This document shows, piece after piece, positions 11,694 to 56,231 of a DNA stretch of 62,138 bases. Made by a program: the position numbers and the translations under genes. The notes under the pieces were generated by a model. That model searched no databases. It was given only the letters and a program-made list of their open reading frames with translations, and was not told the DNA's origin. Every line of letters begins with the position of its first letter. Positions within the stretch are counted from its first letter, which is position 1. Source of the stretch: Microcaldota archaeon (GTDB lineage Archaea > Micrarchaeota > Micrarchaeia > Anstonellales > Anstonellaceae); contig JAOAKI010000003.1 of assembly GCA_026413765.1 (NCBI GenBank), positions 1-62,138 on the forward strand, read 5' to 3'.

Positions 11694-11992
11694 GCGGATG
11701 TAGTATAACCTGGTTAGTATCTTGGCCTTCCAAGCCAAAGATCCGGGTTCAAAACCCTAGGGGGCACCAAACTGGCACAAGCTTCCCCCTGAGGGCTCAC
11801 CCCCGAATGAAAAACAAATGTTTGGGGGTGGGGGCACCAAACTGGCACAAGCTTCCCCCTGAGGGCTCACCCCCGAATGAAAAACAAATGTTTGGGGGTG
11901 GAAAGCTTGGGGCTTGCAAGCGCGTTGTTTTGATTGCGCATCCAAAGATGACGCATTTGTGCTTGAAAGGCATGAAAATCCCGGCATCCGCA
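11694..11992 (+). tRNA. tRNA-Gly(UCC) with a 225-nt T-loop intron
   Basis: The acceptor GCGGATG pairs with CATCCGC before discriminator A. The anticodon arm is TTGGC-CTTCCAA-GCCAA, giving UCC. The T-arm is split: CCGGGTTCAAA ends at 11753 and TCCCGG resumes at 11979, so the intron is 11754-11978, between positions 59 and 60. TTCA before the left cut pairs with TGAA before the right cut, with three-base bulges AA^A and AA^T, a relaxed BHB. Splicing restores TTCAAAT. The intron holds two identical 70-bp repeats. A T-run directly after the gene is a likely terminator, and CTTTATTG at about 11669 a likely TATA. Confidence 0.9.
11761..11900 (+). repeat. Two perfect 70-bp tandem repeats inside the tRNA-Gly(UCC) intron
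   Basis: The 70-bp unit beginning GGGGCACCAA occurs at 11761 and again at 11831 with no differences. Each unit can form two hairpins: AGGGGG with CCCCCT (loop about 20 nt) and CACCCCC with GGGGGTG (loop about 19 nt). The core CCCCCTGAGGGCTCACCCCC is shared by every copy of the Gly type. The array is preceded by the boundary CCCTAGG at 11755-11761. The unit is not coding, although a long open frame runs through it. Confidence 0.95.
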
Positions 11993-12070: not shown

Positions 12071-13390
12071 ATGAGTGTTTTGCCACTTGACGGAAGATAT
12101 AAGACTGAAATGAACCAGTTTTTTGAGGAAGAATATAAGCTGAAAACATGGCTTGAAGTAGAAGTTGCCCTTGCGAAAGCCCATGCGAAACTCAAAAACA
12201 TTCCGCAAGAGGCAGTCTTGGAAATAGAAGAGGCGTCAAAAGAAGTGACTTTGCAGCGCGTTTCTGAAATTGAAAGCGAGATACACCATGACTTGATGGC
12301 GATGGTGCGCGCGCTTTCTGAAAAATGTAAAAGATACGGCGGGTATGTGCATTTGGGTGCAACATCGTACGACATCGAGGACACTGCCTATGCGCTTGTT
12401 TTGCTGCGGGCAATAGGGATGCTGGAAAACAGGATGAAGCAGACGTGCAGCATCCTTAAAGACCATGCCTTGAAAACGAAAAATCTCGTCTGTGTGGCAA
12501 GAACCCATGGGCAGCATGCCGTCCCCACGACGTATGGGATGAAATTTGCTTTGTGGTATGCTGAGATGAAAAGGCACCTTGAGCGGCTGCAGAGGGCAAA
12601 GAAAGTAATTGGAGTCGGGAAGATGTCTGGGGCTGCCGGCACAATGGCAACATTTGAAGGCAAGGGATTTGAGATTCAAAGGCTGGTGATGGAAGAGCTT
12701 GGCTTGGAAGCAGACAGCATAACAAACCAAGTTGTGCAAAGAGACAGGCATGCAGAGGTTATTTTTGTACTTGCGTTGATTGCAGCCACGCTGGAAAAGA
12801 TTGCAAAAGAGATAAGGAATTTGCAAAGAACCGAGATAATGGAGATAAGCGAGCCGTTCTCCAAGAAGCAGGTTGGCTCATCCACCATGCCTCAAAAAAG
12901 AAATCCTCACAAATCTGAAAGGATATGCTCGCTTGCAAGAATAGTGAGGGCAAACGTTCCAGTCGCACTCGAAAACATCCCGCTTGAGCATGAAAGAGAC
13001 CTGACCAATTCTGCAAATGAGAGGTTCATATTCGCAGAAAGCTTCATAGTCACTGACTATATGCTTTCGCAGATGAACACGATCCTTTCAGGCCTGCAGT
13101 TTTATCCGGAAAACATAAAGAGAAACCTCGAAATCACTGGCGGGGCAATAATGGCAGAAAGGGTGATGATAGAGCTGACGAAGAGAGGCATGGGACGGCA
13201 GGAGGCGCACGAGCTGATACGCAAAAGCTCTCTTGAGGCATTTGAGCAGAAGAAGACTCTTGCGGAGGTGCTGCTGAAAAAAGAGGAAGTGGCAAAGCTG
13301 ATGAATGAAAGCGAGCTTTCAGCATTGTTTGACCCCAAGGAATACATTGGGGAAGCTGAAAGAATAGTTGAAAGGGTTCTGAAAGAGTAG
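12071..13390 (+). CDS. purB: Adenylosuccinate lyase
   Basis: Protein of 439 aa; it splits SAICAR and adenylosuccinate, releasing fumarate, in purine synthesis. The superfamily signature [14 protein letters not shown] is present, as are [13 protein letters not shown] and [13 protein letters not shown]. The ATG at 12071 follows AGGTGATGCG, a good ribosome binding site. An open frame continuing 138 codons upstream passes through the tRNA-Gly gene and its repeats and is not coding. First gene of a five-gene operon; glyA starts 7 bp later. Confidence 0.93.
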
Positions 13391-32115: not shown

Positions 32116-32364
32116 GCGACCGTCGTCTAGCCTGGTTAGGATACGAGATTGCCAATCTCGCGGGCCGGGTTCAAAACCCTAGGGGGCACTAAACTGACAC
32201 AAGCTTCCCCCTGAGGGCTCACCCCCGAATGGAAAACAAATGTTTGGGGGTGGGGGCAAGGGTTGGCGCCAGAATCCGTCAAAAGGCCCACCCTGAATGC
32301 AAAAGCAGATGCTTAGTACATTGTGGATGTTGAAAAAGTATGGGTGAAAATCCCGGCGGTCGCA
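32116..32364 (+). tRNA. tRNA-Gly(GCC) with a 175-nt T-loop intron
   Basis: GCGACCG pairs with CGGTCGC before discriminator A. The anticodon arm is CGAGA-TTGCCAA-TCTCG, giving GCC. The T-arm is CCGGGTTCAAA, intron 32176-32350, TCCCGG. TTCA before the left cut pairs with TGAA before the right cut (GGTGAAAAT), with bulges AA^A and AA^T as in the other Gly genes. The intron contains one 70-bp repeat, then about 100 nt of unique sequence. A T6 run follows the gene. TTTTTTAAAC at about 32067 is the likely TATA. Confidence 0.9.
32183..32252 (+). repeat. One 70-bp repeat unit inside the tRNA-Gly(GCC) intron
   Basis: The unit starts GGGGCACTAAACTGACAC and ends GTTTGGGGGTG, with a few substitutions from the tRNA-Gly(UCC) copies and the same core CCCCCTGAGGGCTCACCCCC and terminal hairpin. 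It is preceded by the boundary CCCTAGG. The following GGGGCAAGG looks like the first bases of a lost second copy. Confidence 0.93.
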
Positions 32365-33417: not shown

Positions 33418-33714
33418 GCGGCTGTAGTCTAGCCTGGTAGGATCTGAGCTTCCCATGCCTTTTTAGGCTGGAAAAAGCTCATGGCCCGGGTTCAAAACCC
33501 TAGGGGGCACTAAACTGACACAAGCTTCCCCCTGAGGGCTCACCCCCGAACGAAAAACAAATGTTTGGGGGTGGGGGCACTAAACTGACACAAGCTTCCC
33601 CCTGAGGGCTCACCCCCGAATGGAAAACAAATGTTTGGGGGTGTAAGGCAGGGCAAGGTTTCCTCTGCCAACTAATCATTGAAGCTACATGAATGGAAAA
33701 TCCCGGCAGCCGCA
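33418..33714 (+). tRNA. tRNA-Gly(CCC) with two introns, 20 nt (anticodon loop) and 204 nt (T-loop)
   Basis: GCGGCTG pairs with CAGCCGC before discriminator A. The first intron is 33456-33475 at 37/38: TTCC pairs with GGAA, bulges CA^T and AA^A, inner helix GCC/GGC, a proper BHB. The anticodon is CCC. The second intron is 33497-33700 at 59/60. Here TTCA pairs with TGGA through a G-U pair, keeping the same bulges as the other Gly genes. It contains two 70-bp repeats. A T7 run follows. All three Gly isoacceptors in the window therefore share this T-loop insertion. Confidence 0.9.
33504..33643 (+). repeat. Two 70-bp tandem repeats inside the tRNA-Gly(CCC) intron
   Basis: The copies start at 33504 and 33574. 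They differ from each other at two adjacent positions (GAACGAAAAAC against GAATGGAAAAC) and carry the same hairpins and boundary CCCTAGG as the other Gly introns. The first copy has GAACG, the form seen in the tRNA-Val arrays, which links the two subtypes. Confidence 0.93.
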
Positions 33715-44508: not shown

Positions 44509-45654
44509 GTGGTCCGCAAGGTTTTCTGGCTGAATTTTTTCGATTCGTTTATTGGCGGAGCAATAATATTGGCTGTCCCTCTGCTTATGCTTCAGCTTGA
44601 AATAGATGTAAAAGAAATAGGCCTTGTTTTTGCAGTAGCTCCTTTGGCTTCGTTTGGAGCAAGAATAATCTCTTCTGTTATTGCTGACAGAATAGGGGAG
44701 AAAGTCTTCTACATTTTGAATGCGCTGTGCAATGCAGCGCAGTCGCTGCTTTATCTTTTTGTGCCCAGCACTTTTGGCTTTGCGGCAGGGAAAATGTTTG
44801 ACGGGGCAAGAAGCGCATTTATCTGGGCAGTCAACAGGACAAGCATAATTTCTGCGTCCCACAACAAGCATTTCACACTTGGAAGCTTGGTTGGCGGAAG
44901 GCAAGTTTATTTTGCGCTTGGGTGCCTTTCGGTCGCATTGCTTGCCCCGCAATTTGGGTTCGGGTTCGTCTTTGCCCTCTGCCTGGCCATCTCGCTGGTT
45001 ATGCTTTATCTTTCGCTTGATGCGCCAAACAGCGCAAGAGAGAATGTGAGCTGGAATGATTTGCTTGCGCACAAGAGAGATCGGCTGTTTTACGAAACAG
45101 CGATAGTGATGGCTATCGGAAGCACATTCTACATGATAATGCTGTACATTTTGCTGCCGATATTTTTCAGCAAGCTGGGATTTTCGCCTTTTGAAATCGG
45201 GATTCTTTATGCTATATATGCTTTGCTTTTTGGGATTGTGCTGCAATACATTTCGCACCATGGGTGGGAGAGCAAAAAAGTGGCAATCATCGGAGCGGCT
45301 GGATTTGCAGTCACGATTTTTGGGATGGCACTTTACCCTGCATTTGCCCCGCTGCTTTTTGTACTGATGGCAATTGGGGATGCAAACCTTGCGCTTGTGT
45401 GGGAAGAAACAATTTATCTTCAGGCAAGGCACAGCAAAAAAAAGTCCACCGACATTGCGCTTCTGCATGCGCCAGGAATGCTCTTGGTATTTTTGGCGTC
45501 GGCAGCCTCTGGCTTTGCAATCGAAATGGCCGGCTTTGCTGCAATACTGGTTGTAACTGCGCTTTCGCTTGTGCTTTATGCTTTCCTAAGCTTGAGGCTT
45601 ATTGACAAGCAAGTGGGCGCATCAGCGCTCCAGACTCAAATCACCAAGTCATAG
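44509..45654 (+). CDS. MFS transporter
   Basis: Protein of 381 aa with about eleven or twelve hydrophobic helices. The loop between helices 2 and 3 reads ADRIGEKVFY, the MFS signature loop D-R-x-G-x-K/R. The substrate is unknown. GTG start at 44509. It is shorter than most members, and the N-terminus begins directly in helix 1 (VFWLNFFDSFIGGAII). Confidence 0.75.
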   Translation: MVRKVFWLNFFDSFIGGAIILAVPLLMLQLEIDVKEIGLVFAVAPLASFGARIISSVIADRIGEKVFYILNALCNAAQSLLYLFVPSTFGFAAGKMFDGARSAFIWAVNRTSIISASHNKHFTLGSLVGGRQVYFALGCLSVALLAPQFGFGFVFALCLAISLVMLYLSLDAPNSARENVSWNDLLAHKRDRLFYETAIVMAIGSTFYMIMLYILLPIFFSKLGFSPFEIGILYAIYALLFGIVLQYISHHGWESKKVAIIGAAGFAVTIFGMALYPAFAPLLFVLMAIGDANLALVWEETIYLQARHSKKKSTDIALLHAPGMLLVFLASAASGFAIEMAGFAAILVVTALSLVLYAFLSLRLIDKQVGASALQTQITKS

Positions 45655-45700
45655 AAAGCGTTTCCTCATTTGCGCCCAACTAGACTCTGCAAACAGCAAG

Positions 45701-46001: not shown

Positions 46002-46058
46002 AGGCATCAGAGTCAAGTCACCTCATCATTTTTCAGGGTCGTACTTGTCATCATCTGC

Positions 46059-50962: not shown

Positions 50963-51353
50963 TTAGTCTAGTTTAGCTTCAAAAAAATCTTAGGTTTTTC
51001 ATTCAGAAGTGAAGCTTTCAGGAAGAAATTTGATGGAAGTTTAGTGCTAAAAAAATCTTGTGTCTTGCGTTCGGGGGTGAGCCCTCAGGGGGAAGTTGGT
51101 GATAAGCTAGTGCTAAAAAATCTTGGGTTTTGCGTTCGGGGGTGAGCCCTTAGGGGGAAGTTGGTGATAAGCTAGTGCCCCCTAGGGAGTGAGCCCTCAG
51201 GGGGAAGTTGGTGATAAGCTAGTGCTAAAAAATTTGGGTTTTGCGTTCGGGGGTGAGCCCTTAGGGGGAAGCTGGTGCCAAAGCTAGTGCTAAAAAAATC
51301 TTGTGTCTTGCGTTCGGGGGTGAGCCCTCAGGGGGAAGTTGGTGATAAGCTAG
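50963..51353 (-). repeat. Repeat array downstream of tRNA-Val(GAC): five copies plus one degenerate
   Basis: Read on the minus strand from the tRNA, units begin at 51353, 51287, 51222, 51175 and 51110, each about 65-67 bp except the third (51222-51176), which is 47 bp. A decayed copy follows at about 51043-50963. All share the CCCCCTGAGGGCTCACCCCC-type core (some with CCCTAAGGG). Unlike the Gly type they lack the GGGGGTG end and carry an A/T-rich tail instead. The gene-free stretch 50855-51367 is fully explained by this array. The array starts directly after the tRNA with CCCTAGGGGGCAC. Confidence 0.9.
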
Positions 51354-51367
51354 TGCCCCCTAGGGAA

Positions 51368-51459
51368 TGGGCCCGCGCGGAATCGAACCGCGAATCTTCT
51401 GCACGTCAAGCAGACGTCTTAACCATTGACGAGCCAATGGGCTTTTCGACTACGGGCCC
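51368..51459 (-). tRNA. tRNA-Val(GAC) with 19-nt D-loop intron
   Basis: GGGCCCG pairs with CGGGCCC before discriminator A. The anticodon arm is TCTGC-TTGACGT-GCAGA, giving GAC. The D-loop is split by 51444-51426 (minus order), an AAGCCCATTGGCTCGTCAA intron between positions 15 and 16. The inner hairpin AGCC/GGCT is flanked by bulges AA^A and AA^T. Removal gives GTC-GAATGGTTAA-GAC with the conserved A14 and purine 15. The T-arm CGCGG-TTCGATT-CCGCG is intact. The repeat array begins 3 bp after the discriminator. Confidence 0.9.
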
Positions 51460-51517
51460 TCTACTAGCTTCTTTTGAAATACCAATATTTAAATGAGTTT
51501 AGAGCGCCAGCTTTCTT

Positions 51518-52324
51518 ATGCGCAAAGCAGCAGCATTTTGCCCTGCCTATATTACTGGAATTTTTACTATAGGTAAAGGAGACGCGGCTGGTGCAGGCGT
51601 TTCGCTTGAAGAGGGAATGACCACTCATGTCCATGAAGCAAGCAAAACGGCCGTAAAAATCAACGGCCGAGCCAATAGTGCGCCTGTATCGCGGCAAGTG
51701 ATAAAAGAATACCAAAAGCTTTACCGCTTTTTTGCGAAAGTAGAGCATCAGAGCAGGCTGCCGATAGGGTATGGGCTTGGGATGAGCGCGGCTGGCGCGC
51801 TTTCTTTGTCGCTTGCACTAAACGAGCTTCTTGGCGCTGGCCTTTCTTATGCCCAGTGCGTAAAAATTGCTCACGATGCAGAAGTGAAATGCGGAACTGG
51901 GCTTTCTGGCGTGGATGCAGCGGCAATAGGCGGCTTTCTGCTTAGAAGGAACCTTAAAGAAAAGCCTATCGAAATTCCGATCGAAAGAAAGCGGTTGCAT
52001 ATAGCATTCTTTGCACCGATAAAAACTGCGCAAATTGTATGGGACGAGCAGATGAAAAGGAAAGTGAACCAAGCAGGGCAAGCTGCGCTTAACGGCCTTG
52101 CAGCAAACCCAAGCTGGGAAGCTTTTATCCGCTATTGCCGCCAATTTGCTTTGGAGTCCGGCCTTGCCGGCTGGTGCGAAAGCATTCTTGAAAAAAACGA
52201 ATCCTCGTCGATGGCAATGCTTGGAAGGACAATTTTTTCGGAAAGGGCGCTTTGGCTTCCTTCAAAGCCTAAATATTATATGAAAGTTGCGGCATGCAAA
52301 AAAAATGCGCATGTCTTGAGGTGA
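51518..52324 (+). CDS. Pantoate kinase (archaeal CoA pathway)
   Basis: Protein of 268 aa of the GHMP superfamily. It opens FCPAYITGIFTIGKGDAAGAGVSL, like archaeal pantoate kinases. The GHMP ATP loop is PIGYGLGMSAAGALSLSLAL around 85-104, and GTGLSGVDAAAIGGF forms the third motif. It phosphorylates pantoate; the partner phosphopantothenate synthetase is not in the window. It overlaps nothing, and the GT2 gene starts 5 bp later. Confidence 0.8.
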   Translation: MRKAAAFCPAYITGIFTIGKGDAAGAGVSLEEGMTTHVHEASKTAVKINGRANSAPVSRQVIKEYQKLYRFFAKVEHQSRLPIGYGLGMSAAGALSLSLALNELLGAGLSYAQCVKIAHDAEVKCGTGLSGVDAAAIGGFLLRRNLKEKPIEIPIERKRLHIAFFAPIKTAQIVWDEQMKRKVNQAGQAALNGLAANPSWEAFIRYCRQFALESGLAGWCESILEKNESSSMAMLGRTIFSERALWLPSKPKYYMKVAACKKNAHVLR

Positions 52325-52328
52325 AAAG

Positions 52329-53036
52329 ATGAAAAAGCCGTTCGTCTCGATTATTATCCCAACCTACAATGAAGAAAAATATCTCGGCGCAGCTCTTGCA
52401 TCAATCAGGCAGCAGAAGTTCTCAAAACCTTATGAGATAATCATAGGCGATGGATTTAGCAAAGACAGGACAACAAAAATAGCAAAAGCCTACAAAGCAA
52501 GAGTCTTCCAGAAGAACTGCAAGACTGCTGCTGCTGCAAGGCACACCGGAGCACTTGCTGCGCGGGGAGAGATTCTTGCATTTACCGGGGCGGATGTTGA
52601 AGTTGACCCAGAATGGCTGGAAAATTTGACGCGCCCGATTGTTGAAGGGAAAGCAGACTGGGTATTGGGAAAGATCTATCCACTGGGAGGTGGATTGCTT
52701 GACCGCTTTGCGATGGAGCTGCTTGAGCCGCTTGCAAAATTGATGAATTTTATTGGCTTTCCTTATGTATATGCGGAAAACCTTGCGTGCAAAAAAAGCG
52801 TTTATATGAAAGTTGGAGGCTTTAACCCCAAGATTGTCACAGGAGAAGATACTGACCTTGCAATAAGGTTGAGAAAGGTTGGCAAGTTTGCGTTTGCAAG
52901 CGACGCTAAAGTCCGTGTTTCTCTTCGTAGGTTGCGCAAATGGGGCTATCTAAAATATTTGGTGTTTCACGTTTCCAATTTCTTGCGCTCGCATTTCTTT
53001 TCCTCCCCTGCTCCATACTATGAGCCGGTCAGGTAG
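52329..53036 (+). CDS. Glycosyltransferase family 2
   Basis: Protein of 235 aa. SIIIPTYNEEKYLGAALASI opens the GT-A fold; IIGDGFSKDRTTKIAK and FTGADVEVDPEWL provide the metal-binding Asp motif, and GGFNPKIVTGEDTDLAIRLRK contains the catalytic-base ED region. No transmembrane segment is obvious apart from a weak C-terminal one. The acceptor is unknown. Its 3' end overlaps alaS by 8 bp tail to tail. Confidence 0.85.
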   Translation: MKKPFVSIIIPTYNEEKYLGAALASIRQQKFSKPYEIIIGDGFSKDRTTKIAKAYKARVFQKNCKTAAAARHTGALAARGEILAFTGADVEVDPEWLENLTRPIVEGKADWVLGKIYPLGGGLLDRFAMELLEPLAKLMNFIGFPYVYAENLACKKSVYMKVGGFNPKIVTGEDTDLAIRLRKVGKFAFASDAKVRVSLRRLRKWGYLKYLVFHVSNFLRSHFFSSPAPYYEPVR

Positions 53037-55668
53037 AAAAGATTTTGCCTCGGGCAAAAGTCTTGTTTCCGCCGCCTTTCGCATTGAAAGACTTGAGTAT
53101 CTCAAGCGCATTGTCATTACTTTCAGCTGGGGCAGCCACAACTATCAACCCCTCCTGATTTGAGATTGCGGCAGTATATCCTGATTCGGAAAATTTTGCC
53201 GCCATTTCTTCCATTAGTTTTTGCGAGAACTGCGTGCCCAAAAGCTGGATGCGGCTGGCTTGGCTTTCTTTCGCTTTTCTAATCTCGTTTTCCACAACCA
53301 CTGTGGCAAACAAAGACTGAAGCTTTTCGAGTTCCTTGCTTTTCTCTTTCCACTCAGAAAAGAATCGCATTGCAGTAGATTTAAGCTGCGTTTCGGGCAC
53401 AGAAAGGGCTTCTGCCGCCTCCCGCAAGAGCCTTTCCCTCTCCTGGATGTAGCGGACAGCCTCGAGCCCTGCCTTGATCACAACGCGCTCAACTCCATCC
53501 TGGACACCTTCTCTCCTGACTATTTTGACAAACCCAAACTCAGCAGTGCTTTTGTTGTAATTGTGGGTGCCTCCGCAAGCTTGATGGTCGATGTCTCCTA
53601 TCGAGACGACGCGAAGCTCTTTGCCTGGGACTGCGCCGCCTTGGTAGAGTCTAAAGCCGTATTTCCTTTCTGCTTCATTTCTGCCCAACACTTCGGTCTT
53701 TATTGGCAAGTTCGCAAGCACGTAAAAGTTTGCAAGCTCCTCGATTTTGTCAAGCTCCTCTTGGGTTATTTTGCGATAATGCGTCAGGTCTATATGGGCT
53801 TTGAATTCGTCTTTGTAAGAGCCTGCTTGCCATATGTGGGGCCCAAGAACCTGCCTTGCGCATGCATTAATCAGGTGGATGCATGTGTGGTGTATCGCGA
53901 TTTGCTTCCTTCTTTTTCCATCCACCTTGCCGTGCACTTTCTGCCCTACACGGAATGAGGATGCATCTTCAACTTCGTGCAATATCACGCCTTTCTCTTT
54001 TTGCACATTCACAACTCGCTTGCCATCAAGCCAGCCGACATCGTAAATCTGGCCACCTCCTTCGGGGTAAAACGCAGTTGCGTCCAACACGACATATTTT
54101 TCCGTCACAGCCAACACAGTGGCATCAAACTCCTCGACGCCTTCATAAAACAAGGTCTTTGTTTTTTGCATCCCTTCAACATCGATTGGCGGCTTTGCAG
54201 GCTGGCCAGTTTCATCCGCTTTTCGCAGCAGCGAATAGAAGTTTTCCGGGATTTGGATTTCTATTCCTTTTTCCTTTGCAACCTCTGCAACCAGCTCTGC
54301 AGGAATCCCGTCTGATTCGTAAAGTTTCTTGAGCTCCTCGAGCGTCAGCGCTTTGCCGCGAGAAAGCATTGAAGCGACTTTGCCCCTGCTTTTTTCGCGG
54401 GTTGCATAATATTTTTTCCTTTCTTCTTCCACCACTGCGATTGCAGTTGGCACGCCTTCTTTTAGCTTGGGAAACAGGTCCCGCAAATGGTAAGCATGTG
54501 CTTCAAGAATTGACGCATAATCTAAAGACAAAGAGAACTCGCCGTCAAAGCCAAAGACGCGCCTGAGAATCATCCTTAAGTTGTACCCTCCGCCTGAATT
54601 GGAAGGGAGCATCCCGTCAGTGGATGTGAAAAGGATAGTTTTGAGGTGATCTGCGCATGCATAAGAGGCATATAGGGGCGAAAAACTGTCTATGAGCTGC
54701 TTTGTGTCCATGCCAAGCTTTCTTGCAATCTCTTCTCGCTCTTGAGAAAATTTCCCGGCCGCTTCATCTGCATCAAGAGAGCCAGAAAGCTTTGCGTATT
54801 CCAAAAAAAGCTTTTCGTCTATTTTGATGCCTGCATTATCTTTTATTTTTTGTATGGCTGGGCCGAAAACAACATCATAGCTGACAGGTGAGCCCCAAGT
54901 TATCCAGCAAAGCCTTTCAAGCCCAGCGCCCATGTCGATGACTTTGGTGGAAAGCTCGCGGAAGCCGCCGCCAGGCAACTCCTCAAATTGCATGAAGACG
55001 CAATTGCCAAGCTCTAAGCCGTCAGCAAAATATTCTATGCAGGGGCCGAAATTGCCTCCTCCTGCCCAAACATCCTCGTTGAAGACAAGGTGCTTTTCAT
55101 CGATTCCAAGGAAAGAAAGATATCCAAGGTCGTGTGTTATTGCCTCATCTTTCCAATAAAATTGCCCTGTTTTTTGCGTGTTGAAAGCATGCTGCCCAAC
55201 CATCACAAAGGTAGTATAATGCCTGCCGGTCACGCCCACGTTCGAAATGTCTGGGAAACGGATGCACTCTTGAGGTATAATTAATGGGTTTGCGGGTGGG
55301 TCGACTTCTCCAGAAACGACATAGGGCTGAAAATCAGATATCGAAGCAATTGTAAAATACAAATCATCTCTCCAGCGTGCAACAGTCGGGTAAGCCTCAA
55401 GCGAGGTATGCCCGTTTTGGGTAAAGTATTGCTCGATTTTTTTCCATGTCTCAACATATTCAAGCGGTGCTTTTGCCATTTTTTTGCCTATGAACTTATA
55501 TCCCATGCAGCTTGCATCCGAGCAAGTTTCTCTCTCTTCAACTGCCCAGAAATGGCGGTTGCATTTTTTGCATTTCTGCCTAAAAAAGCCCCTGTCTATT
55601 AATGCGTCTACTTTGTAGTGCTTTTCCCATTCGGCTGCGAAATGTGCGCGCAATTTCTGTTTATCCAT
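53029..55668 (-). CDS. alaS: Alanyl-tRNA synthetase
   Basis: Protein of 879 aa, archaeal type. The class II core has FTQNGHTSLEAYPTVARWRD (motif 1 and 2 area) and FGPCIEYF with GAGLERLCW. The editing domain carries HHTCIHL and CGGTHN, the four zinc ligands. An N-terminal extension with CKKCNRHFWAVEERETC holds a zinc site typical of archaeal AlaRS. TTATATTCAT at about 55692 (read with the gene) is a likely TATA. Confidence 0.95.
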   Translation of the reverse strand: MDKQKLRAHFAAEWEKHYKVDALIDRGFFRQKCKKCNRHFWAVEERETCSDASCMGYKFIGKKMAKAPLEYVETWKKIEQYFTQNGHTSLEAYPTVARWRDDLYFTIASISDFQPYVVSGEVDPPANPLIIPQECIRFPDISNVGVTGRHYTTFVMVGQHAFNTQKTGQFYWKDEAITHDLGYLSFLGIDEKHLVFNEDVWAGGGNFGPCIEYFADGLELGNCVFMQFEELPGGGFRELSTKVIDMGAGLERLCWITWGSPVSYDVVFGPAIQKIKDNAGIKIDEKLFLEYAKLSGSLDADEAAGKFSQEREEIARKLGMDTKQLIDSFSPLYASYACADHLKTILFTSTDGMLPSNSGGGYNLRMILRRVFGFDGEFSLSLDYASILEAHAYHLRDLFPKLKEGVPTAIAVVEEERKKYYATREKSRGKVASMLSRGKALTLEELKKLYESDGIPAELVAEVAKEKGIEIQIPENFYSLLRKADETGQPAKPPIDVEGMQKTKTLFYEGVEEFDATVLAVTEKYVVLDATAFYPEGGGQIYDVGWLDGKRVVNVQKEKGVILHEVEDASSFRVGQKVHGKVDGKRRKQIAIHHTCIHLINACARQVLGPHIWQAGSYKDEFKAHIDLTHYRKITQEELDKIEELANFYVLANLPIKTEVLGRNEAERKYGFRLYQGGAVPGKELRVVSIGDIDHQACGGTHNYNKSTAEFGFVKIVRREGVQDGVERVVIKAGLEAVRYIQERERLLREAAEALSVPETQLKSTAMRFFSEWKEKSKELEKLQSLFATVVVENEIRKAKESQASRIQLLGTQFSQKLMEEMAAKFSESGYTAAISNQEGLIVVAAPAESNDNALEILKSFNAKGGGNKTFARGKIFST

Positions 55669-55730
55669 ACTCTCTTCTCTACTGAAGAAAATTTATATTC
55701 ATAACACAAAAAAGAAAGCGTTTGGCGCAC

Positions 55731-55741
55731 ATTATTTAATA
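55731..55741 (+). promoter_or_regulatory. TATA box of tRNA-Val(UAC)
   Basis: ATTATTTAATA lies 25-35 bp before the tRNA 5' end at 55766. Confidence 0.5.
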
Positions 55742-55765
55742 CAGCACTGCCCTAAAAATTCCTGT

Positions 55766-55857
55766 GGGCCCGTAGTCGAAAAGCCCATTGGCTCGGCAAT
55801 GGTTAAGACGTCGCTCTTACACAGCGAAGATTCGCGGTTCGATTCCGCGCGGGCCCA
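55766..55857 (+). tRNA. tRNA-Val(UAC) with 19-nt D-loop intron
   Basis: Near twin of tRNA-Val(GAC); the anticodon arm TCGCT-CTTACAC-AGCGA gives UAC. The intron is 55781-55799, at 15/16, identical to its twin except CGGC for CGTC. This change makes the central helix GTCG/CGGC fully paired (with one U-G), whereas the twin has a mismatch. Bulges AA^A and AA^T again bracket the intron. The repeat array starts after ATT at the 3' end with CCCTAGGGGGCAC. Confidence 0.9.
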
Positions 55858-55867
55858 TTCCCTAGGG

Positions 55868-55996
55868 GGCACTAGCTTTGGCACCAGCTTCCCCCTGAGG
55901 GCTCACCCCCGAACGCAAGACACAAGATTTTTTGGCACTAGCTTTGGCACCAGCTTCCCCCTGAGGGCTCACCCAAGAATGAAAAACCTAAGATTT
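55868..55996 (+). repeat. Two repeat copies downstream of tRNA-Val(UAC)
   Basis: Units starting GGCACTAGCTTTGGCACC lie at 55868 and 55934, a period of 66 bp, with a partial third start (GGCACC) at 55997. The first ends with ACAAGATTTTTT, a possible tRNA transcript terminator. The second has CACCCAAGAATG instead of CACCCCCGAACG, so its core is decayed. This is the same subtype and orientation as the array at tRNA-Val(GAC). Confidence 0.9.
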
Positions 55997-56112: not shown

Positions 56113-56231
56113 GCAGGGGTACCAGAGCCCGGTTAAATGGGCGGGACTTAAGTGGCAAAAGCCGGAAGATATCCCGTGGCTTAGGCCTTCGAGGGTTCAA
56201 AAGAAATAAGCTGAAAATCCCTCCCCCTGCA
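56113..56231 (+). tRNA. tRNA-Leu(UAA) with two introns, 18 nt (anticodon loop) and 16 nt (T-loop)
   Basis: GCAGGGG pairs with CCCCTGC before discriminator A. The anticodon arm is CGGGA-CTTAAG, intron 56153-56170, A-TCCCG, giving UAA. A long variable arm (TGGCTTAGGCCTTC) marks a type II tRNA. The T-arm is GAGGGTTCAAA, intron 56202-56217, TCCCTC. TTCA pairs with TGAA with bulges AA^A and AA^T, exactly as in the Gly genes, but the intron is short and free of repeats. It shows the probable ancestral state of the Gly insertion. The 150 bp after the gene are gene-free. Confidence 0.9.

Follow-up and report, generated by a model that had tools for sequence, protein, structure and literature searches.

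A short, probably mobile hairpin element at tRNA genes and in tRNA introns of micrarchaeal genomes

Two tRNA-Val genes of a Microcaldota archaeon are each followed, almost without a gap, by an array of short related repeats, which raises the question of what these repeats are and what placed them at tRNA genes. A first-pass annotation of the locus had proposed tRNA-directed insertion, as integrases do, or a role in tRNA transcript processing. The window analysed here is the whole stretch of 62,138 nucleotides, which is contig C7 of an 840-kb genome in 17 contigs. Judging from comparative sequence evidence, the arrays are likely to represent a short, non-autonomous, MITE-like mobile element with a bias to tRNA genes, whose intragenic copies would survive as spliceable introns.

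Repeat arrays at tRNA genes

The window contains eight tRNA genes (three Gly, Trp, His, two Val, and Leu), and five of them, the three tRNA-Gly and the two tRNA-Val genes, carry the element, as had been annotated. On the minus strand, tRNA-Val(GAC) (51368..51459) is abutted at its 3′ end by an array at 50978..51365, the outermost units of which are degenerate; two of its units, each starting with CCCTAGGGGG, lie at 51316-51365 and 51138-51187. On the plus strand, tRNA-Val(TAC) (55766..55857) is abutted by an array at 55860..55996, which comprises two units and a remnant. At both genes the discriminator is followed by TT and then by the array (from 51365 downwards and from 55860, respectively), the sequence immediately before the array start being ...GGGCCCA-TT in each case. 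The first-pass annotation was therefore right that the arrays start close to the discriminators and follow the orientation of their tRNA; the interval that it had described as repeat arrays, 50963-55996, does hold both of them but consists mostly of the protein genes between. The array period was 65-70 bp according to Tandem Repeats Finder. Both tRNA-Val genes have a D-loop insertion of about 20 nt, which is absent in G005, G012, and G013 and is probably a small intron. Because of these extra nucleotides, ARAGORN labels the minus-strand gene Thr(ggt); its identity as Val(GAC) is shown by the anticodon loop TTGACGT and by comparison with relatives.

The sequence that begins the arrays, CCCTAGGGGGCAC, also opens the T-loop introns of all three tRNA-Gly genes, in agreement with the annotated boundary. 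It occurs in six exact copies in the window (11755+, 32177+, 33498+, 51175-, 51353-, and 55860+), where 0.5 chance matches would be expected with two mismatches allowed and no shuffle reached six. All three tRNA-Gly genes lie on the plus strand. tRNA-Gly(TCC) (11694..11992) contains a BHB intron at T-loop position 59/60 (11754-11978) with two element units at its 5′ end (11755-11901), tRNA-Gly(GCC) (32116..32364) has a 59/60 intron at 32176-32350 with one unit from 32177, and tRNA-Gly(CCC) (33418..33714) has an anticodon-loop intron as well as a 59/60 intron (33497-33700, 3′ splice site assigned by eye) with two units from 33498. Placement of the Gly copies in the T-loop thus held, but they sit at the 59/60 BHB splice site and form introns rather than breaks in the genes. 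Among the several introns of the tRNA-Leu gene (56113-56231) is one in the T-loop that lacks the element, which indicates that T-loop introns exist independently of it. Two candidate C/D-box sRNAs, scoring under the Rfam gathering thresholds, were also noticed in the window at 45614-45678 and 46004-46058 (minus).

A genome-wide search, proposed as a check in the first-pass annotation, returned 24 copies of the core TTCCCCCTGAGGGCTCACCC with at most three mismatches and none with a reversed-pattern control; one additional locus was found by a covariance model. All ten array loci are at tRNA genes: they lie in the introns of the three tRNA-Gly genes and tRNA-Ser(CGA), at the 3′ ends of three tRNA-Val, one tRNA-Leu, and one tRNA-Ala gene, and in one array on contig C12, which is arranged tail-to-tail with an opposite-strand tRNA that its left end does not touch. 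In nine of the ten the left end falls exactly at the tRNA 3′ end or the 59/60 site (binomial, ~1e-30). The Ser(CGA) locus was met twice, at the end of contig C1 (L055) and the start of C3 (L056); both contigs break inside its element array, with slightly different flanks, and C1 terminates in ctgtctcttatacacatct, a Nextera adaptor remnant.

Structure, distribution, and sites of the element

Reduced from copies in relatives, the element core comprises ~48-51 nt and reads CCN-TA-GGGGG-N5-20-CCCCC-TRA-N′GG-YTCA-CCCCC; a typical insert measures ~50-90 bp, and its right end is not sharply defined. The lower stem covaries, with the pairs CCC:GGG, CCG:CGG, CCA:TGG, and ACC:GGT all present. For 23 distinct sequences the covariation score was 0.139 vs 0.034 in shuffles. 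In an alignment of 96 distinct sequences, which was fitted to the covariance model and so leans towards the structure, 40 doubly changed cells were counted vs 10.6 in shuffles, and none of 500 shuffles was equally high. Folding of single units as RNA was significant for an intron-type unit (z -3.5) and for the short element of G034 (z -3.4), and not significant for a 3′-flank unit (z -0.3) or the G006 unit (z -0.95), so that the structural claim rests on covariation. A CRISPR array, with its constant repeats and unrelated spacers, was ruled out, since the units are alike over their whole length. Another repeat, made up of two hairpins (CATCGAGC..GCTCGATG-TC-TGATGCATTTTGC..GCAAAATGCAC), was also seen at six loci of G002, G005, G012, and G008 (L149, L151, L156, L157, L107, and L082), where it interrupts the first element behind its TCA or separates that element from the tRNA.

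With the covariance model, the element was detected in 17 of the 20 family genomes. Of 295 genomes from the whole phylum, 19 had it, every one of them a member of the same order. A scan of GTDB species genomes with the element pattern returned Candidatus Micrarchaeota MAGs only, apart from one further archaeal record, and viral contigs gave no match to this pattern. None of the Rfam families matched the element, whether at gathering or at relaxed thresholds; the hits were confined to tRNAs and to weak C/D-box candidates at other positions.

Placement in relatives was counted over about 78 copies with flanks. Some 22 of them lie at the 5′ end of T-loop introns (59/60), whose removal restores the T and acceptor stems; 19 of these loci were assigned by a scripted test and three by eye. 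In each of these introns the 5′ exon pairs with the intron 3′ end in a central BHB helix of 4 bp, usually TTCA:TGAA, and a full BHB score was obtained at 25 of 2473 random control positions (1%). The T-loop copies accordingly have the features of archaeal BHB tRNA introns, and their splicing is predicted. A further ~21 copies are located 0-3 nt behind a tRNA 3′ end, 5-6 begin anticodon-loop introns at 37/38, for the most part in tRNA-Arg genes, three are at the 5′ end of a tRNA-Ala, and roughly twenty are elsewhere, often right after stop codons. Many copies far from tRNA genes had been named in the first-pass annotation as what would speak against its reading; the own genome has all ten array loci at tRNA genes, and in relatives roughly one copy in four lies at some other site. 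At one locus of G001 (L154), the stop codon (CACTAGGGGG) is supplied by the element right behind a purH-like C-terminus (...GIRHFKH*). G034, which belongs to another family of the order, has two T-loop introns with the element (L198 and L201), one anticodon-loop intron (L200), and one copy in a protein gene.

A splicing endonuclease (tRNA_int_endo, PF01974) is encoded in all 20 family genomes. In the own genome (G000:C10:9962-10462) it has two domains within one 401-aa frame, a layout that calls to mind the three-unit epsilon-2 endonuclease of ARMAN, an enzyme that cuts introns at diverse positions (PMC12397907; PMC4033280).

Target duplications, empty sites, and intron residence

The tRNA-directed insertion put forward in the first-pass annotation is well supported by the precise boundaries described above, by target-site duplications, by presence and absence of the element at tRNA-Val, and by an occupied and an empty site in a protein gene. 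Flanking direct repeats scoring at least 11 were observed at 7 of 76 copies vs 3 of 1384 mismatched left/right flank pairs (p ~1e-7); most of the 76 copies scored, including every copy in the window, have no flanking duplication. Counting the cases 5′ of tRNA-Ala once, six independent loci and one in G034 (L199, ~25 bp) make seven, with lengths that vary between 14 and 27 bp. The duplicated segments are TGGGCTCGTGGCGCA at tRNA-Ala of G009, AATGGGCCTGTGGC at the orthologous tRNA-Ala of G008, TAAACCCTTCAAT upstream of tRNA-Ala(CGC) of G008, ATTG[A/C]CGCGCGGTCAAA in G016, a 25-bp repeat with four mismatches in G004, TCAGAC[C/T]GCTTCCA in G003, and ATCTCGGCAGCCCCA at tRNA-Pro of G011 (L159). The last corresponds exactly to nucleotides 59 to discriminator 73 of tRNA-Pro, which makes the 59/60 site and the 3′-end site the two edges of one 15-bp segment. 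This one clear duplication offers a lead, namely that the two favoured tRNA sites may in general be edges of a single target.

Empty sites are also found. Near-identical tRNA-Val(GAC) genes have the element behind them in G005 and lack it in G003 and G008, the G003 gene being followed directly by oligo-T. In G004, the element is inserted in frame in a papain-like C1 peptidase (EKYWSY-ALGGTNASHDPPKGSPPTGY-PGIDDAPPAFCYSYAS), where it contributes 20 residues that are absent from the homologues in G001, G003, G008, and G014; this insertion is flanked by just a 5-bp exact repeat. Furthermore, loops are more alike between sites of one genome than between genomes at one site, with identities of 0.74 vs 0.55 for Val and 0.73 vs 0.58 for Gly (label permutation, 0 of 500). 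Such homogeneity would mean recent amplification or gene conversion, and gene conversion could account for it instead of amplification.

Other inserts were noticed at two tRNA-Val loci. In G011 (L195, contig C15, ~12621-12722), a different insert, of 68 bp, lies upstream of the element between two copies of the tRNA-Val 3′ end TCTCCTTGGGCCCA, which points to the use of the same tRNA 3′-end target by other inserts. In G003 (L245, 1450-1760), the 3′ half of tRNA-Val(TAC) is repeated twice in tandem behind the gene, and a hairpin-rich insert breaks the T-loop of each copy at ~59/60.

With regard to the mechanism, the transcript or single strand would fold into the hairpin CCN-TA-GGGGG / CCCCC-TRA-N′GG followed by YTCACCCCC, and a putative recombinase acting in trans would insert the element with a stagger that is usually long and gives rise to direct duplications of ~14-17 bp, sometimes ~25 bp. 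Insertion would be strongly biased to tRNA genes, at the 3′ end, the T-loop 59/60 site, and the 37/38 site. A copy behind a tRNA would be harmless, and slippage or unequal exchange could expand it into a tandem array like those at the two tRNA-Val genes, while a copy inside a tRNA gene would persist only within a BHB intron that is cut out by the broad-specificity splicing endonuclease of the family.

How the intragenic copies and their introns came together may be read in another way, which we hold tentatively: the element could be an archaeal introner, so that a BHB intron would arise anew from the very act of its insertion into a T-loop or an anticodon loop. The element end, together with T-loop sequence that is duplicated or adjacent, would then provide the splice sites, TTCAA being nearly its own reverse complement. 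The position of the element at the extreme 5′ end of the T-loop and anticodon-loop introns is consistent with this, as are a ~50-nt T-loop intron of G034 that is little more than the element itself and the tRNA-Pro(CGG) orthologues, of which that of G011 is intronless with the element behind it and those of G014 and G016 have the element in a T-loop intron. However, T-loop introns free of it also occur in the same genome, so that the element could be a passenger in older introns, and no T-loop intron retains a duplication beyond what BHB pairing needs. Intron 3′ ends, which read GGTTGAAAATCC and so resemble the exon sequence GGTTCAAATCC, had been candidates for such duplications; BHB pairing alone explains them, and no match extends further.

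Mobilising enzyme, host function, and comparison with known systems

Four families were screened for a mobilising enzyme, and the own genome gave no match to Phage_integrase (PF00589), Cas1, Y1_Tnp, or RVT_1; tyrosine integrase, Y1 transposase, and reverse transcriptase are therefore rejected as universal mobilisers. Cas1 was found in 2 and Y1 transposase in 6 of the 20 family genomes, the own genome not among either. We infer that the recombinase moving the MITE-like element has been lost or is of a kind outside these four families. The element has an internal hairpin only. Target duplication together with occupied and empty sites is as in MITEs; terminal inverted repeats shared with an autonomous element were not found, nor was a larger element with the same ends among the fetched loci, and "MITE-like" hence describes behaviour, not membership.

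It is unlikely that the repeats are instead a functional RNA of the host, i.e., a hairpin that serves tRNA 3′ processing or transcription termination and owes its spread to selection and gene conversion. The hairpin is indeed conserved with compensatory changes, several copies lie right behind stop codons, and, in the own genome, units end in T5-T7 in 10 of 13 cases behind tRNAs vs 0 of 9 inside introns (p 0.0005). On the other hand, most tRNAs in these genomes are without the element, in close relatives the element is missing behind the same tRNA-Val, and copies also reside inside a protein-coding gene and tRNA introns. The T-run partition holds in the own genome only, the T-run being no part of the element in the others. 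Archaeal transcripts usually terminate at oligo-T, and tolerance of T-runs may hence be confined to positions where ending the transcript is harmless. The processing role that had been suggested is unnecessary, although the BHB introns and the T-run partition do touch on transcript processing.

A casposon-like or Cas1-driven miniature element appears just as improbable. At a tRNA-Pro 3′ end, casposase recognizes the T-loop motif TCAAATC and leaves duplications of 14-15 bp (PMC6614799), and casposon duplications range from 1 to 27 with a median of 15 (PMC4046053), close to the values here, which made membership attractive for the 15-bp tRNA-Pro duplication. Against this stand the near absence of Cas1 from the family, the lack of casposon-type terminal inverted repeats, and the position of the G011 Cas1 beside a CRISPR array with GTTGCATCCCTACGTCGTGAGCACCGGTGAGTGCAAC repeats (L195, 4100-4370). 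A REP/PATE-like element moved via single-stranded hairpins by a TnpA of the IS200/IS605 type is likewise improbable; the hairpin beside a conserved single-stranded tail, the short size, and the TTCAA-like left flank at many sites would fit, but Y1 transposase is absent from the own genome, and duplications are present here. IS200/IS605 transposition is not known to leave a target duplication. Insertion by an integrase, as put forward in the first-pass annotation, is not supported if taken to mean a classical tyrosine-integrase element: PF00589 has no match in the own genome, the element is only ~50 nt long, and the duplicated host segments differ per locus, with no one att sequence.

No description of this element was found in the literature searched. 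It shares with bacterial REP elements and archaeal MITEs a short, palindromic, non-coding sequence that is dispersed and often just behind genes, and differs from them by its tRNA bias, long duplications, intron residence, and the lack of a partner transposase among the four screened families. Casposons (PMC4046053, PMC6614799) resemble it in the tRNA 3′ end as target and in ~15-bp duplications, whereas most carriers here are without Cas1, terminal inverted repeats are lacking, and the single duplication at a tRNA 3′ end spans nucleotides 59-73, not the last 4-7 nt. As in the Caldiarchaeum model of tRNA disruption by a mobile element (PMC3293823), insertion of mobile DNA at a tRNA gene is tied to intron gain; that element is 1.8 kb long and encodes a recombinase, in contrast to the ~50-90-bp, non-coding unit with many copies and arrays described here. 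Eukaryotic introners likewise are transposable units occupying intron positions, though of spliceosomal introns rather than BHB tRNA introns, and intron creation is putative here.

The findings suggest a recombinase at work and show a very small genome that tolerates arrays of a seemingly selfish element at essential genes. One defined, searchable element is associated both with insertion with target duplications and with the leading part of tRNA introns, and is a concrete candidate for the origin of archaeal tRNA introns; with dozens of copies at occupied and empty sites, intron gain becomes testable locus by locus. A review of 2014 stated that the mechanism of archaeal tRNA intron transposition was unknown (PMC4090602). 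Closest in behaviour is the intron transposition proposed for Thermoproteales in 2010 (reviewed in PMC4033280, PMC4090602). Unlike in that proposal, which concerns a different phylum, a defined hairpin element of ~50 nt with flanking duplications and empty sites is recognized here, and the probable mobile unit is now visible outside introns, behind tRNAs and in protein genes.
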